NCBI GenBank assembly: GCA_007125075.1
Contig: SLDX01000091.1
Span: 1 to 42,169, forward strand
DNA from: Desulfonatronospira sp.
GTDB taxonomy: Bacteria; Desulfobacterota; Desulfovibrionia; Desulfovibrionales; Desulfonatronovibrionaceae
Direction: 5' to 3'
DNA length: 42,169 bases
The position numbers and the translations under genes are program-made. Below, one piece after another: positions 3,573 to 40,259 of the stretch (its first letter is position 1; each line of letters begins with the position of its first letter). Under the pieces are notes generated by a model. That model made no database searches. It was not told the origin of the DNA and saw only the letters and a list, made by a program, of their open reading frames with translations.

Positions 3573-3599
3573 ACTCTGCTTGGAAGTTTTTCACAGATG

Positions 3600-3617
3600 C
3601 TTTTCAGGTCTGAAAAG
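3600..3617. repeat. 18-base perfect inverted repeat in the serine operon leader
   Basis: CTTTTCAG (3600-3607) and CTGAAAAG (3610-3617) are exact reverse complements around a 2-base centre. Flanking AGATG and CGTCT can extend the pairing with a bulge. No U-run follows, so it is not an intrinsic terminator. It could be an operator for a dimeric regulator or a leader hairpin. Confidence 0.5.
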
Positions 3618-3782
3618 AGGCGTCTCAGCCCTAATGTCTGCCTGGATAATCTTATCGAGTTGCATAAATCTGGCTTCTTGATGCTCAAGAGGTATTATCA
3701 TTGGGCAAGATTTTTTCCATGGCCTGGAAAGCTTTTGAGTTTGCCCCATCTAACAGAATCATCTTCAAAAGAGGAGGATTAT

Positions 3783-4913
3783 ATGCAAAGCCCGTTTCCG
3801 GAGTTGCAACTTTTTATCACAGGCCCCACATATATACGGCCTGAGGTTCGCCAGGCCGGCCTGTGGCCTGAGTTTGGACACCGGGACTCAGAAAACCGCA
3901 AGCGTTTTGAGCCGATCATGAAAAATCTTATGACCCTGGCCCAGGCCCCGGAAGATTACCAGGTCATTATCTTTAACGGCAGCGGCACCACTGCTATGGA
4001 GGCGTCCATAAGATCTCTGGTGGCAGATGGTGAAACCGTGCTCAATCTATCGGTAGGAGCTTTTGGAGATTTATACCACAAGTTGGCTGTGGTCAATGGC
4101 AAACAGGCAGTACAACTCAAGTTCGAACCCGGTACCTGTATCGATCTCAACAGACTGCGAAATGCCTTAAGCGAACACAAGCCGGCTGTTGTCACTCTTA
4201 CCCATAACGAAACCTCAACCGGGGTGGTCAACGACATAGAAGCGGCCTGCAAGCTCATCCATGATGCAGGCGCTTTGGCGCTTATCGACGGCATCAGCAT
4301 TTTCGGCGGATCGCCCTCCAATATCAACAAGACCCGCTGCGCAATGTACTCCACTTCGACCCAAAAAAGTCTCGGCCTTCCCGCGGGATTCGGAATAACT
4401 TTTGTCAGTCCCAGGGCCATGGCCAAAGCAGAAAAGGTCACCCACAGGGGATTGATTTCCGATATCTTATCGCAGACCCCAAGAGCCGCAAAGTTTCAAA
4501 CCCTGACCACCCCCAATTGTACTCTGGCCAATCAGATGTATGCCCAGCTTGAATATATCGTCAACCAGGAAGGTATAGACAAACGCTTCTCAAGGCATCT
4601 GGAAATGAGAGACGCGGTACATTCGTTTGTGGACGGTTTAAGCGGATATGAACTTTTCGTGCCTGAAGGCAGTCGTTCTCCCACCTTGACCACTGTACGT
4701 GTTCCAGAAACTATCACTGCGGCTGAACTTAAAGAGATCAAGGAAAAGATACGGGAAAGGGGCTATCTTTTTGATCCGGGTTATGGAAAATTAAACGACG
4801 CCCTGGAACAGACCGGGGCAAGACCGGTCTTTCGCATTGGACATATGGGCGATATAAATATGAATATGCTCAACAACTATTTGAAAATCCTGAAAGAAAT
4901 CCTGCCCGCATAA
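3783..4913 (+). CDS. Class V aminotransferase (AGXT/serine-pyruvate type), probable phosphoserine aminotransferase
   Basis: This 376-residue fold-type I PLP enzyme belongs to the alanine-glyoxylate/serine-pyruvate aminotransferase group. Visible landmarks are GSGTTAME (67-74) for the cofactor phosphate, HNETSTG (141-147), the Asp that pairs with the pyridine nitrogen in IDGIS (Asp169), and the PLP lysine in STQKSLG (Lys195). The C-terminal FRIGHMGDIN is typical of the family. ATG 3783 is chosen because it follows GGAGGAT closely and gives a normal N-terminus; the open frame upstream to 3597 has no such site. serA follows 74 bases downstream, so the likely role is conversion of 3-phosphohydroxypyruvate to phosphoserine in place of a classical SerC. 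That role is inferred from context; a glyoxylate or serine-pyruvate role is the alternative. Confidence 0.9.
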   Translation: MQSPFPELQLFITGPTYIRPEVRQAGLWPEFGHRDSENRKRFEPIMKNLMTLAQAPEDYQVIIFNGSGTTAMEASIRSLVADGETVLNLSVGAFGDLYHKLAVVNGKQAVQLKFEPGTCIDLNRLRNALSEHKPAVVTLTHNETSTGVVNDIEAACKLIHDAGALALIDGISIFGGSPSNINKTRCAMYSTSTQKSLGLPAGFGITFVSPRAMAKAEKVTHRGLISDILSQTPRAAKFQTLTTPNCTLANQMYAQLEYIVNQEGIDKRFSRHLEMRDAVHSFVDGLSGYELFVPEGSRSPTLTTVRVPETITAAELKEIKEKIRERGYLFDPGYGKLNDALEQTGARPVFRIGHMGDINMNMLNNYLKILKEILPA

Positions 4914-4987
4914 GGCATGACACTTTAGGCTTCCTGTGTGCGGAGCATAAGTTTCTGGTTTTCATACAAAAAAGGAGAATTTTGATT

Positions 4988-6172
4988 ATGAGGATACTGG
5001 CCAATGACGGTTTAGTGGAAGAAGCAGTTGAATATCTGCGCCGCGAGGGTTTCAGCGTAGATACCGAGAAACGGGATCACGATGATCTCTTGGGTGATCT
5101 GCCGGACTTTGACGCCCTTTTGGTGCGCAGCGCCACTAAGGTTACCCGGGATCTCATTGAAGCCGCTACAGTAAAGAAGGGCAAGCTGAAAATCATCGGG
5201 CGCGGTGGAGTAGGCACAGACAATATTGATCTGAAAGCTGCCAAAGAACGCGGAGTAGTGGTTAAATTTGCTCCCCACGGAAATATCAACGCCACAGCCG
5301 AACACGTTATAGGGCTTATGTTCGCCATCGCCCGCAAGGTTCCTTTCGCCCACCACACTTTAAAGTCCGGAGTGTGGCACAAAGCCCGTTTCAAAGGGGT
5401 GGAGCTGCAGGGAAGGACGCTTGGCCTGATCGGCTGCGGCCGGATCGGACAGGCCGTGGCTGTCAAGGCCAAAAATCTGGGCATGAAGGTAGTTGGTTTT
5501 GACATGCAAAGATGGATGGATACCGATGTGGATTATCTCGATTCCATTGACCAGGTGCTGGATGTAGCTGATTTTGTCAGCATCAATACCGGAGGAAAGG
5601 CATGCCTGATCAGGGGTCCGGAACTCGAGCGCATGAAAAGCAGTGCTTTTCTCATCAATGCCTCCAGAGGAGTAAACGTTGAGGAAGACGCTCTTTATGA
5701 CGCCTTGAAGAACGGAAGGATAGCCGGAGCCGCCATGGATGTCTACGAGAATGAGCCGAAGCGTGAAGGAGAGCCCTTTACCAGCAAGCTTGCCGAGCTT
5801 GACAATGTTGTGCTCAGCGCGCACCTGGGCGCCTCAACTGCCAATGCTTCACGCAAAACAGGCATGGAAATCTCCAAAGTTGTCTGCAAATACCTTAAAT
5901 ACGGAGATTTCTGTCAGTCAGTCAATGTCGGGCCTACTGTGGTTGATGAAGGCATCGACCTGTATACGATTTTCATCACCCATGCGGATAAGCCGGGCAT
6001 GTTCGGCAAGTTCGGAAACGCTTTCGGCGAAATGGGAGTTAATATTCAGGAAAACAATTCCCGGCGGCTGGACGGCTTTGCCCAGACTATATATACCATT
6101 CAGGAAAAGCCGACTCAGGCAATGCGGGATCAGCTGCTGGCCATAGAAGGGGTGCACCGGGTGGTGTATTGA
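4988..6172 (+). CDS. serA: D-3-phosphoglycerate dehydrogenase SerA
   Basis: SerA oxidises 3-phosphoglycerate to 3-phosphohydroxypyruvate with NAD, the first step of serine synthesis. The 394-residue protein has the nucleotide motif GLIGCGRIG and the catalytic trio of the D-2-hydroxyacid dehydrogenases: Arg in INASRG, Glu in YENEP and His in SAHLGAST. A C-terminal ACT domain covers about the last 70 residues (LYTIFITHADKPGMFG onward). It is the short form with no extra allosteric insert, and the ACT domain suggests serine feedback. ATG 4988 is preferred over TTG 4982; GGAG at 4974-4977 serves either. The upstream aminotransferase and the terminator at 6198-6235 make this a two-gene serine operon. 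Confidence 0.96.
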   Translation: MRILANDGLVEEAVEYLRREGFSVDTEKRDHDDLLGDLPDFDALLVRSATKVTRDLIEAATVKKGKLKIIGRGGVGTDNIDLKAAKERGVVVKFAPHGNINATAEHVIGLMFAIARKVPFAHHTLKSGVWHKARFKGVELQGRTLGLIGCGRIGQAVAVKAKNLGMKVVGFDMQRWMDTDVDYLDSIDQVLDVADFVSINTGGKACLIRGPELERMKSSAFLINASRGVNVEEDALYDALKNGRIAGAAMDVYENEPKREGEPFTSKLAELDNVVLSAHLGASTANASRKTGMEISKVVCKYLKYGDFCQSVNVGPTVVDEGIDLYTIFITHADKPGMFGKFGNAFGEMGVNIQENNSRRLDGFAQTIYTIQEKPTQAMRDQLLAIEGVHRVVY

Positions 6173-35993: not shown

Positions 35994-36023
35994 AAAAACC
36001 CCGCTCTTGACGGGGTTTTTTTT
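35994..36023 (+). terminator. Intrinsic terminator after ilvC
   Basis: AAAAACCCCG (35994-36003), loop CTCTTGA, CGGGGTTTTT (36011-36020) and further T residues form a textbook terminator 14 bases after the ilvC stop. The next gene starts only about 30 bases later. Confidence 0.93.
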
Positions 36024-36051
36024 GAACATACGCTCATATACATATCAATTC

Positions 36052-37830
36052 ATGCACAAGACAAAGACCAGAGCACCATCCCCTGATGGGATACGATCCA
36101 GCCGCTACAGCCTTATACTGTATAAAGGAATCCTGAAAAATGATCAATTACAGCAAGCCATGGACATAGCCAAGAAAAATCGGTTATGCGTTGACGATGT
36201 CCTTCTGGAAAAGTTCAAGATAGATAAAAAGGAGCTTGGTCAATCCCTGGAGCAGTATTATGATACTGAATTTATTGAATTTGATTCTGCCATAGATGTT
36301 CCTTTTGAACTCTTTGAACAAAAAAGGCTGGATCCTGATTTTCTGAAAAAATATCAATGGGTGCCTTTAAAGAAAGAGGGCAAGGATATAATTGTTCTGG
36401 TCAACAATCCTTTTGACCTGGGCAGACTGGATGAAATAAGGTTTATATTCGGAACCAGCAATATTCTGGCTAAAGTGGCCACTTCCGGTGATATCAAGAG
36501 GTTCATAGATCACTTTTACCAGCAGTATACTTCCGAGCAGAACATCGTCTCCCTGATGGAAGCGGTAGAGGCCGATTCAGAAGAAGATGCCGGCAGCGAC
36601 TATATTGATGAAGGAGAGCTTACCGAGCACGACAGTGAAGTTGTACGTCTGGTCAATGGCCTGCTTCTGGAAGCCTGGAAACAGAAGGCGTCTGATGTAC
36701 ATATTGAACCAAGCCTGAGATCTAGGTATTGTCTTATCCGCCTGCGTGTCGACGGCACCTGCCATGAATTCAAAAAGATTCGCATGGCTCTGGCCAGACC
36801 TCTTGTTTCGCGGATCAAAATAATGTCGCACCTGAATATCGCCGAGAGAAGGCTGCCTCAGGACGGCAAGCTCAAGATAAAATTCCCTGAGGTCAACAAG
36901 GTGCTTGAATTCAGGGTGGCTATTTTGCCGACAACAGAAGGCCAGGAAGATGTGGTTTTAAGAGTCCTGACTTCAGGCAAGACCATGACTCTGGATGATC
37001 TTTCCCTGTGCAGAGAAAACATAGTCAATTTCCAGAGCATCATCCATAAGCCTTACGGACTTATTCTTGTAGTCGGACCTACTGGATCAGGCAAAACCAC
37101 CACTTTACATTCTGCACTCAACTATATCAATACTCCGGAAAAAAAGGTCTGGACGGCGGAAGACCCGGTGGAGATCACCCAGGACGGCCTCCGGCAGGTT
37201 CAGGTTAACCCCAAGATAGGCCTTACTTTCGCCAATCTGCTGCGTTCCTTTTTGCGTGCAGACCCGGACGTGATCATGGTCGGTGAAATGCGCGACCGGG
37301 AAACTGCGCACATTGCCGTGGAAGCCTCGCTCACCGGTCACCTTGTATTCAGCACCCTGCACACCAATACTGCGCCTGAAACCATAACCAGGCTTCTGGA
37401 TATGAATCTTGATCCCTTCAACTTCGCGGATTCCCTGCTATGCGTACTGGGCCAGAGGCTTATCAAAAGCCTGTGTCCCAAATGCAAGGAAGGATACATT
37501 CCGGAAAAGGAGGAGCTCAGTGAACTTGAACACGAATTTGGTGCTGATTTCAAAGTATTTCAGAGCAGCTGTTGTAAAGGGGGTCAGATGCTGTACCGGG
37601 CCAGAGGCTGCAGGAATTGTATCGGCGGATACAGGGGCCGGCTTGGGATTCACGAGCTCATGATTAATTCAGATGGTTTGAAGAAGTTGATCAAGTTCAG
37701 AAAGCCTACAGATGAGATAAGAGCTCAGGCTGTAAAAGAAGGCATGCTTTCCTTGAAGCAGGACGGTATTTTAAAAGTATTGGGCGGTCTTACGGATATC
37801 CATCAGGTTCGGACAGCCACGGGCATGTAA
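36052..37830 (+). CDS. GspE/PilB-family secretion or pilus assembly ATPase
   Basis: A 592-residue hexameric ATPase that powers type II secretion or type IV pilus extension. The N-terminal part (about 1-190) is a MshEN/GspE N-domain. Walker A is GPTGSGKTTT (from about residue 343), followed by the Asp box, Walker B in DPDVIMVGEMRDRETA and the His box SLTGHLVFSTLHTN. A tetracysteine zinc motif follows (Cys475, Cys478 and a later CRNC pair). ATG 36052 is preferred, as earlier in-frame starts overlap the ilvC terminator, but there is no clear ribosome site. No other secretion or pilus gene is adjacent. Confidence 0.92.
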   Translation: MHKTKTRAPSPDGIRSSRYSLILYKGILKNDQLQQAMDIAKKNRLCVDDVLLEKFKIDKKELGQSLEQYYDTEFIEFDSAIDVPFELFEQKRLDPDFLKKYQWVPLKKEGKDIIVLVNNPFDLGRLDEIRFIFGTSNILAKVATSGDIKRFIDHFYQQYTSEQNIVSLMEAVEADSEEDAGSDYIDEGELTEHDSEVVRLVNGLLLEAWKQKASDVHIEPSLRSRYCLIRLRVDGTCHEFKKIRMALARPLVSRIKIMSHLNIAERRLPQDGKLKIKFPEVNKVLEFRVAILPTTEGQEDVVLRVLTSGKTMTLDDLSLCRENIVNFQSIIHKPYGLILVVGPTGSGKTTTLHSALNYINTPEKKVWTAEDPVEITQDGLRQVQVNPKIGLTFANLLRSFLRADPDVIMVGEMRDRETAHIAVEASLTGHLVFSTLHTNTAPETITRLLDMNLDPFNFADSLLCVLGQRLIKSLCPKCKEGYIPEKEELSELEHEFGADFKVFQSSCCKGGQMLYRARGCRNCIGGYRGRLGIHELMINSDGLKKLIKFRKPTDEIRAQAVKEGMLSLKQDGILKVLGGLTDIHQVRTATGM

Positions 37831-37906: not shown

Positions 37907-37935
37907 TTATCAACTAACATTTTTAATACTATAAT
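37907..37935 (+). promoter_or_regulatory. Candidate promoter of the cysteine synthase fusion gene
   Basis: A perfect TATAAT (37930-37935) lies 17 bases after TTATCA (37907-37912), which matches the -35 consensus at 4 of 6 positions. It ends 17 bases before the start codon, so the leader would be very short. That fits the lack of a strong ribosome binding site. Confidence 0.45.
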
Positions 37936-37952
37936 CATAATCACCATTTCTA

Positions 37953-40259
37953 ATGAGCGATCTTCTTTCTCTGATCGGCAATACCCCTCTGGTGGAGATT
38001 AAAAATATTTCTCCCAATCCAAGAGTAAGAATAATGGCCAAGCTGGAAATGACCAACCCGGGCGGTTCGGTCAAGGACAGAGTGGCCCTGGCCATGATTG
38101 AGCGGGCTGAAAAAGAAGAAGGCCTGAGTCCTGAAAAGACCGTGATAGAAGCCACTTCAGGCAATACAGGGATAGGCCTGGCCATGGTCTGCGCCTACAA
38201 AAAATACCCCATCAGGCTGCTTATGCCTGCTTCTGCGTCTGAAGAACGCAAAATGATCATGCGTGCTTATGGAGCTGAGATTGTTTTAACCCCAGGTCAG
38301 CTGAGCACCGATGGAGCAATTGAGGAGGCCTACCGGCTGGCCCGGGAACAACCTGACCAGTTTATCCTTATGGATCAGTTCAACAATCCAGCCAGCATCG
38401 AAGCCCATTATCATGGTACCGGCCGGGAAATCTGGGAGCAGACCGCGGGTAGAGTTACACATGTGGCCGCATGTCTGGGGACTACCGGGACTATCATGGG
38501 TATAACCAAAATAATGCGCGAGCTTGCTCCTCAGGTTGAATGCATAGGAATAGAGCCTTATGCCGGTCATAAGATTCAGGGACTTAAGAACATGCAGGAG
38601 TCCTATCCTCCTGGCATTTACAATAAAAAGGCTTTAGACAGGATCATTCACGTCCGCGACGAAGAAGCCTGGTCAATGTGCCGTGCCCTGGCCCGCAAGG
38701 AGGGCATTTTTGGCGGTATGAGCTCAGGCGCGGCTATGGCCGGGGTATACCAGCTTGCTCAGGAAATAGATGAGGGGCTGCTGGTGACCATATTTCCCGA
38801 CGGGGGAGAAAGATATCTGAGCACTCCATTGTACAGTATTCCTGAACTGGATGGTTTGAAGCTTTATGACCAGAAAAGCCGGAAAAAAGTTGTTATCCAG
38901 TATTCACGAAACAGGCCCGGTCTTTTTACCCCTGGCCCCAGAACCGACAGATTGGACGATCCTGACTTCTGGCGCAGGGTGGTTTTTCTGGATGCGCTTG
39001 TACGCAGGATCAGGCAGAAGGGACACAATCCTCAACCGGTTGTGGCTGTAGCTGATTTTGACGACCGTACCCTGCAGGCAATGCGCGACAGAGGCATGCA
39101 CAGAAGCGAATTCAGCCGGAAAGCCATGGCATCCATTCAGGAACTTGCCGTGCTGATGAGTTTGAGTGATCTTTTTAATTTCTATCCTGCCGGACAGTCA
39201 CTGGAAACCGGCATTGAGATCTGCAGCAAGCTTTTGTCCACCGGGCTTGCATATGAAAAGCTGCGCTGTGTTTACTTCGATGTAGGCCGGGATAAAGAGT
39301 ATGGAACCCTTGCCGGTTTTGACCCGGAAAAGATCAAATCCGGCAAGACCGTTGATCTGGAGGATTATCTTAAAGACAGTCCAAGGGATTTTACTCTGCT
39401 TAAAAGAGCCAGTCTAAAGGATCTCAAGGAAGATAACGTTCTCAAAACCAAATGGGGCAATGTACGCCCGTCATGGTATCTGCAGATGGCTTCAGTGGCT
39501 GTGGATTATCCTGGGCACGTGGACCTTGTTCTGGGTGGAGAAACACATATGTTTCCCCACATCGACAATCTGCTGAGTATCTGGAAGGGTTCCACACGCA
39601 TCCGTCCTCAATGCTGGAGTGTGGCTCAGGCAGTGCAGCCGGAAAAAAAAGGTGTTGCTCTGCCCGGAATCGAGGATATGGCTGCAAAGATTGGCGGATA
39701 CCACGCCCTGCGCATGTGGCTGCTGTCTGTTTCTTATCACCGGCCCCTGGTGTACTCGGATCACAATATGGCTATGTGGGCCAGAAACTGGAACCGGATA
39801 CAGGATCTGGCAGGCAGGCTGAAGACTTTTGCAGGTGCTGCTGCGCATAATTCTTCCGAAGTTGATAAACAGTGCGCTGATCTGGAATCCTCTGTGCATG
39901 AATGTCTGGATAATGATTTAAGCATGTACAGATTCTGGCCGCGTCTTTTTGAGTTTTCCAGAAAATTGCACAGATTTTTGGATTTGGATATGATAAGCGT
40001 TGAGCAGGCTGAACTCTGCCTGCAGCAGCTGAAAAAAATTGATGAGCTTCTGGCGATCATCGACTGGAAAAAACTTCCCCTGAGTCCCAAAGAATATCCG
40101 GAAGAAATATCCAGACTTGTTTCAGATCGACACCAGGCCAAAAAAGCGAGAGATTTCGTGCTGGCGGACAGGCTGAGAGAGGAAGCAAAGCAAAGAGGGT
40201 ATAAGCTGGTGGACGGCAGGTCCGGCACGATGGTTTACCCGGCCGGCAACAAAAGCTGA
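37953..40259 (+). CDS. Cysteine synthase fused to a catalytically degenerate cysteinyl-tRNA synthetase-like module
   Basis: A 768-residue protein in two parts. Residues 1-300 form a PLP cysteine synthase with PLP Lys41 (GGSVKDR), TSGNTG (68-73), GTTGT (176-180) and SSGA (257-260); it looks complete. Residues about 312-768 follow cysteinyl-tRNA synthetase end to end, including VAVADFDDRTL and the C-terminal ARDFVLADRLREEAKQRG block, but the catalytic site is gone. By eye, HIGH is replaced by DPDF (336-339), KMSKS is absent near 560-580, and zinc ligands Cys28, Cys209 and Glu238 of the E. coli enzyme become Pro327, Met512 and Leu540; His536 is kept. Tryptophan- and arginine-rich tRNA-contact parts may remain. 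It cannot charge tRNA by the normal mechanism; a regulatory or channelling role is possible. The start ATG has no clear ribosome binding site. Confidence 0.9.
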   Translation: MSDLLSLIGNTPLVEIKNISPNPRVRIMAKLEMTNPGGSVKDRVALAMIERAEKEEGLSPEKTVIEATSGNTGIGLAMVCAYKKYPIRLLMPASASEERKMIMRAYGAEIVLTPGQLSTDGAIEEAYRLAREQPDQFILMDQFNNPASIEAHYHGTGREIWEQTAGRVTHVAACLGTTGTIMGITKIMRELAPQVECIGIEPYAGHKIQGLKNMQESYPPGIYNKKALDRIIHVRDEEAWSMCRALARKEGIFGGMSSGAAMAGVYQLAQEIDEGLLVTIFPDGGERYLSTPLYSIPELDGLKLYDQKSRKKVVIQYSRNRPGLFTPGPRTDRLDDPDFWRRVVFLDALVRRIRQKGHNPQPVVAVADFDDRTLQAMRDRGMHRSEFSRKAMASIQELAVLMSLSDLFNFYPAGQSLETGIEICSKLLSTGLAYEKLRCVYFDVGRDKEYGTLAGFDPEKIKSGKTVDLEDYLKDSPRDFTLLKRASLKDLKEDNVLKTKWGNVRPSWYLQMASVAVDYPGHVDLVLGGETHMFPHIDNLLSIWKGSTRIRPQCWSVAQAVQPEKKGVALPGIEDMAAKIGGYHALRMWLLSVSYHRPLVYSDHNMAMWARNWNRIQDLAGRLKTFAGAAAHNSSEVDKQCADLESSVHECLDNDLSMYRFWPRLFEFSRKLHRFLDLDMISVEQAELCLQQLKKIDELLAIIDWKKLPLSPKEYPEEISRLVSDRHQAKKARDFVLADRLREEAKQRGYKLVDGRSGTMVYPAGNKS

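Follow-up and report, generated by a model that had tools for sequence, protein, structure and literature searches.

The gene at positions 37953 to 40259 of the window, by which we mean the whole stretch of 42,169 nucleotides that has been analysed, encodes a chain of 768 residues in which a PLP-dependent cysteine synthase (aa 1-295) is joined to a full-length module of cysteinyl-tRNA synthetase (CysRS) type (aa 302-764) that has lost the motifs of aminoacylation. The reading that we tentatively favour, at slightly less than an even chance, is that of a CysE-independent, CysM-like synthase whose pseudo-CysRS would bind tRNA-Cys and by this means adjust or place the enzyme. Synthetase paralogues turned to another use are a known category, to which the fusion belongs, and we know of no other biosynthetic enzyme to which a dead synthetase for the product it makes is covalently joined. 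The gene and its two halves have been located as follows:

37907..37935, + strand: putative sigma-70-like promoter TTATCA-17-TATAAT just 5' of the fusion gene (consensus match only)
37953..40259, + strand: fusion gene, cysteine synthase plus CysRS-like module, ATG start, 768 aa, recognised by profile matches and relatives
37968..38801, + strand: PLP cysteine synthase half, Pfam PALP over aa 6-283 (1.3e-74), closest to CysM
38586..38588, + strand: K212 in GLKN(M/L), invariant in 101 fusions, aligned with R220 of M. tuberculosis CysM
38856..40244, + strand: CysRS-like module, aa 302-764, recognised by cysS profile, PDB alignment and predicted fold

A frame or alignment error, on correction of which intact motifs might have reappeared, is ruled out as the cause of the motif loss, since 100 distinct relatives share the same continuous open frame. 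Directly 5' of the gene and on the same strand lies a PilB/GspE-type ATPase (window 36007-37830), and the downstream phosphoesterase gene is common to close relatives only. A conserved operon partner has not been found, the best neighbour cluster comprising 11 of about 70 loci with scattered positions; no Rfam match for an RNA element near the gene has been obtained anywhere in the window, nor have tRNA genes been found in it.

The PLP enzyme, which the preliminary description had judged intact, has indeed kept the PALP fold together with the Schiff-base lysine, TSGNTG and GTxGT, and K41 (the Schiff-base lysine), S69-G70-N71-T72, G176-T177, G179-T180 and S257 are invariant in the 101 distinct full-length fusion sequences that have been collected. 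The NCBIfam cysKM profile (TIGR01136) scores the fusion at 356 bits, above its cut-off of 344, and the best NCBIfam match of this half is CysM (cysteine synthase B, TIGR01138, 363 bits); E. coli CysM is its best solved-structure match (45% identity), and the comparison with structure 2v03 has given a Z of 42. Where M. tuberculosis CysM has LRNM with R220, the fusion has LKNM at the same place, and it further differs from CysM in carrying a CysRS module and in having F143 instead of Tyr, although position 143 is Phe in 76 and Tyr in 25 of the 101 fusions. An apparent absence of the loop by which CysK docks to CysE has been dropped as an argument: H206 and K207 of HKIQG may correspond to H226/K227 of CysK, the alignment allows either placement of the gap, and clear absence is limited to the upstream part of the insertion.

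The textbook brake on cysteine synthesis is the inhibition of CysE by cysteine. The window's genome holds a standalone cysK adjoining a cysE-like gene (on contig C110), and among the phylum's 58 fusion genomes standalone cysK and cysE occur together in 26 and are both missing in 28, with four exceptions (Fisher p 1e-11, a value that overstates the independence of these genomes, which are related); cysE is absent in 30 of the 58, 28 of these also being without standalone cysK. In three genomes of the same order (G175 with 5 contigs, 97% complete; G149, 100%; G153, 98%) the dead-module fusion is the only cysKM gene, and no cysE has been found in them even at a permissive threshold. Genomes with the fusion as sole cysKM gene make its cysteine synthase activity likely, and those among them that lack cysE imply that it would be able to work without CysE-made O-acetylserine; judged by gene content, the fusion must be able to make cysteine without that precursor, unless an unrecognised acetyltransferase replaces CysE. 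O-phosphoserine is a possible, and the natural, candidate substrate because K212 falls at the position of R220 in CysM of M. tuberculosis, which uses O-phosphoserine; the role of this R220 was reportedly described by Agren in 2008. Against it counts F143, a mark of O-acetylserine use (PMC12800425). In its favour again, at 3597-6172 of the window, a class V aminotransferase (PhnW/AepZ-like, below cut-off) adjoins a phosphoglycerate dehydrogenase, and the two likely represent an alternative serC-serA pair making O-phosphoserine.

The C-terminal part had been said to keep the outline of CysRS without its catalytic and zinc residues, and the alignments have borne out each of the replacements that had been proposed:

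38931..38933, + strand: P327, position of zinc ligand C28 (alignment with genuine CysRS)
38958..38969, + strand: DPDF 336-339 replacing HIGH, followed by W340 and the invariant R341-R342 (alignment)
39486..39488, + strand: M512, position of zinc ligand C209 (PDB and multiple alignment)
39558..39572, + strand: H536, the kept zinc ligand H234, to L540, position of zinc ligand E238 (PDB and multiple alignment)
39651..39659, + strand: GVA 567-569 and a deletion replacing KMSKS (alignment)

The correspondences W205=W508, C209=M512, H234=H536 and E238=L540 have been taken from a PDB alignment with E. coli CysRS, and C28=P327, HIGH=DPDF and the absence of KMSKS from a multiple alignment with 21 genuine CysRS. 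H536 is thus the sole zinc ligand kept. The NCBIfam cysS profile (TIGR00435) extends over aa 302-761 at 1e-41, yet reaches 143 bits against a cut-off of 340, and Pfam tRNA-synt_1e matches aa 341-607 at 9.4e-21, above its cut-off. AlphaFold2 models have been built with 82 fusion sequences; the whole chain has a mean pLDDT of 91.8 and a pTM of only 0.68, so that the arrangement of the two halves is uncertain, and residues 297-768 modelled alone reach a pLDDT of 93.9 and a pTM of 0.92. This module model superposes on E. coli CysRS (1li5) with Z 41.9 and rmsd 2.4 over 372 aligned residues, and on the tRNA-Cys complex 1u0b with Z 41.3 and rmsd 4.8 over 438 residues including the anticodon domain (model residues 5-468), while the fusion-family profile matches E. 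coli CysRS end to end (2e-109; 6-471 on 1li5). PDB alignment, family profile and superposition together rule out a chance resemblance. The module shares with CysRS the whole-length fold, the anticodon domain, the G34-reading residues and the equivalents of W205 and H234, but it is not a member of CysRS: HIGH, KMSKS and the set of four zinc ligands, the defining features tested, are not there, it is fused behind a cysteine synthase, and the signature R342/Y472/R485/K492, invariant in the fusions, sets it apart. A separate and complete cysS, as had been anticipated, is present elsewhere in the genome (C70:6929-8374, 566 bits, all motifs).

Although the module no longer carries these motifs, it is under purifying selection. 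Its pairwise omega of 0.02-0.26 lies near the 0.02-0.14 of the enzyme half, and 24 residues are invariant across 82 diverse fusion sequences, even though the N-terminal half is the slower-evolving of the two. Two regions of the module concentrate what has been kept:

39255..39449, + strand: fusion-specific block in the connective peptide region, aa 435-499 (E435 K436, T466 V467 D468, Y472, R485, L488, L491 K492, T499)
40080..40256, + strand: anticodon-binding domain, aa 710-768 (R726, K730, F735, D739, corresponding to E. coli CysRS R423, R427, W432, D436)

P329, R342, Y472, R485 and K492 are invariant in the fusions but not in CysRS, and K436, T466, D468, L488, L491 and T499 are fusion-specific and nearly invariant. 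Motif-bearing and motif-less fusions are alike in the fusion-specific invariant residues, and therefore this signature, rather than catalysis, marks the function that they share. Within the region, loop 456-478 has a low pLDDT in the model, as one might expect if the binding of some partner or ligand brought it into order. In the anticodon domain, the four E. coli residues contact G34 of tRNA-Cys, according to PMC12684709 citing Hauenstein 2004, and their counterparts in the 101 fusions are, in the same order, Arg in all, Arg or Lys in 100, aromatic (F/W/Y) in all and Asp in all, the R427 equivalent of the window's protein being K730; the sole exception among the 55 motif-less fusions is one Gln at R427. 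Positions invariant in CysRS are kept in the dead group at a mean of 0.80 in the anticodon domain versus 0.28-0.51 elsewhere (Mann-Whitney p 0.003), although anticodon-domain residues, also invariant in ordinary CysRS, may partly be structural. A G34-reading set would not be expected to persist had the module stopped meeting tRNA-Cys.

Amino-acid supply is sensed via tRNA by riboswitches, kinases and translation. In the mechanism that we propose, the pseudo-synthetase half would keep anticodon-based binding of tRNA-Cys without charging it, and this binding, together with the charging state of the tRNA, would most likely adjust or place the synthase, by which translation demand would feed back on cysteine synthesis. 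An enzyme that bypasses CysE lacks the brake of cysteine feedback, and a module recognising tRNA-Cys would supply one, so that control through the module might replace the usual control point, the inhibition of CysE by cysteine. The tuning ligand may be tRNA-Cys, charged or free, or else cysteine bound in a remodelled pocket, where W508 and H536 are kept. That tRNA is bound, that its binding is coupled allosterically to the synthase, which way the control runs and that O-phosphoserine may serve as substrate are all points that we infer. The bolder statement, that in many lineages of one phylum a cysteine synthase is gated by tRNA-Cys through a dead synthetase, as a direct covalent control in place of CysE feedback, is held more hesitantly than the reading as a whole. 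Of what had been suggested from the letters alone, control of cysteine synthesis by tRNA or another ligand has thus become the best supported, if inferential, proposal, with catalysis lost, the module conserved and the anticodon-reading residues kept.

The main rival to tRNA-Cys reading is a tRNA-free role, in which the module would act as a protein-only allosteric or oligomerisation part in the style of HisZ for HisG, sensing cysteine or another small ligand in the old amino-acid pocket or holding subunits together. Nearly all fusions retain the pocket residues W508 and H536 (W205 and H234 in E. coli) despite the loss of zinc and ATP motifs, which speaks for such a role, as does the fact that conservation specific to the fusions is strongest in the connective peptide region and not in the anticodon domain; regulation by HisZ and synthetase paralogues like it is established (PMC9734150). 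It would, however, not account for the retention of the anticodon domain, with the residues that read G34, in virtually all 101 fusions, and MshC, which does not use tRNA, is without that domain; we regard the tRNA-free role as unlikely, if to be taken seriously. Less probable again is a tethering role without allostery, in which the dead synthetase would park the enzyme on tRNA-Cys or by the real CysRS so that new cysteine passes straight to charging. The same tRNA-reading residues, and the separate CysRS predicted to be active from its complete cysS, are compatible with such channelling, but no sign of a complex with CysRS has been seen, and the invariant connective-peptide signature is not explained by channelling alone.

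How far the module might instead have been recruited for a new chemistry can be judged from its history. Of 148 genomes sampled throughout the phylum, 58 carry the same fusion, a search for which in relatives had been proposed as a check; it has been seen in most genera of the window's order, although many genera of that order are without it, a point against the favoured reading. Quickly built trees of either half, in which the standalone synthases all came from that order, separate the fusions from the other sequences by a fully supported branch; this indicates a single fusion event followed by common descent, on good but not final evidence. As to the distribution outside the phylum, one scan of genome contigs has found only unfused synthases, a plasmid search only ordinary CysRS-level matches of about 25% identity, and no tie to the fusion has been established for DVU0663 of D. 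vulgaris. The large genus g3 of the same order has no fusion in any sampled genome, and its standalone synthases of about 310-350 aa fall outside the fusion clade; at G325:C5:48547-49895 the fusion appears split between two frames. Motif loss is graded: a full HIGH (HxGH) is kept in none of the 101 fusions, all four zinc ligands in 31, and these ligands together with HxG and KMS (usually KMSRS) in 14, while 55, the window's included, have lost C28, HIGH, C209 and KMSKS altogether. The fusions from the window's order all belong to this dead class, nearly all within one clade of 53. When mapped on the synthase-half tree, which is independent of the module, the losses require at least 3 changes for C28, 8 for HxG, 8 for E238 and 7 for KMS; aminoacylation would thus have been discarded stepwise and repeatedly while the module stayed. 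A module that joins cysteine to an acceptor in the manner of MshC, or that produces cysteine persulfide, finds some encouragement in the 14 near-complete fusions and in CysRS paralogues with other roles, MshC and CysRS* (PMC9437257), yet MshC keeps its motifs and more than half of the fusions are without a class I catalytic motif, so that new chemistry, the other suggestion of the preliminary description, is disfavoured and appears quite improbable.

Still more remote is RNA-dependent cysteine synthesis by a new route, in which the PLP half would act on a tRNA-bound precursor held by the module. The retained tRNA-reading residues would suit it, and PLP-dependent conversion on tRNA exists in SepCysS (PMC5424206); a SepRS/SepCysS-type pathway has nevertheless been rejected, the SepRS matches in the window's genome being at chance level only (best 19 bits versus a cut-off of 381). 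Moreover, synthases of the fusion's PLP fold (PALP type) bind the free carboxylate of the amino acid. That the module is a decaying, functionless leftover, as its repeated loss of catalytic residues and faster evolution might suggest, is the least credible reading and has been ruled out as pseudogene decay by the omega values, with full-length frames in 101 sequences across the phylum and the 24 invariant residues pointing the same way.

Among known systems, the proposed control of the synthase by tRNA-Cys has counterparts in logic but not in architecture. HisZ, like the fusion module, is a catalytically dead synthetase paralogue tied to the enzyme making the matching amino acid (HisG), but it is a class II HisRS homologue, a separate subunit and not known to carry an anticodon domain, whereas the fusion module is of class I CysRS fold, covalently attached and keeps that domain. 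The HisRS-like domain of GCN2 is a synthetase-derived tRNA sensor fused to an effector enzyme, likewise of class II; GCN2 is a eukaryotic kinase that controls translation, whereas in the fusion the control would fall on the biosynthetic enzyme itself. MshC, the mycothiol cysteine ligase, is a CysRS paralogue with the same fold as the module, but it keeps the catalytic motifs and is without the anticodon domain, the reverse of what the fusion shows; accordingly, its superposition (Z 40) extends only up to model residue 408 and the profile match only over 5-380 of 473 positions. The module belongs neither to MshC nor to HisZ. A third CysRS paralogue of the genome (C66:7337-8584, 415 aa), which has kept its Cys, HIGN and KMSKS but has no anticodon-binding domain, is a mirror image of the module; it resembles the CysRS* of Desulfobacterales, which according to PMC9437257 charges a second selenocysteine tRNA, but just one tRNA-Sec above cut-off has been found in our search.

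A search of open-access literature has brought up no description of the fusion, and the passages searched in PMC2922099, PMC5424206, PMC8762117 and PMC9437257 (a review of synthetase paralogues) do not describe it. Databases must already contain such proteins, named as cysteine synthases, so that what is new is the recognition and the mechanism rather than the sequences. Nature offers in this family a graded set of synthetases, from nearly complete to wholly dead and each under selection, in which the step from enzyme to sensor is open to bench study. The family is also relevant to the making and control of cysteine in bacteria that lack serine acetyltransferase. If gating by tRNA-Cys is true, a biosynthetic enzyme would be controlled directly by the tRNA of its own product, standing in for the feedback on CysE.
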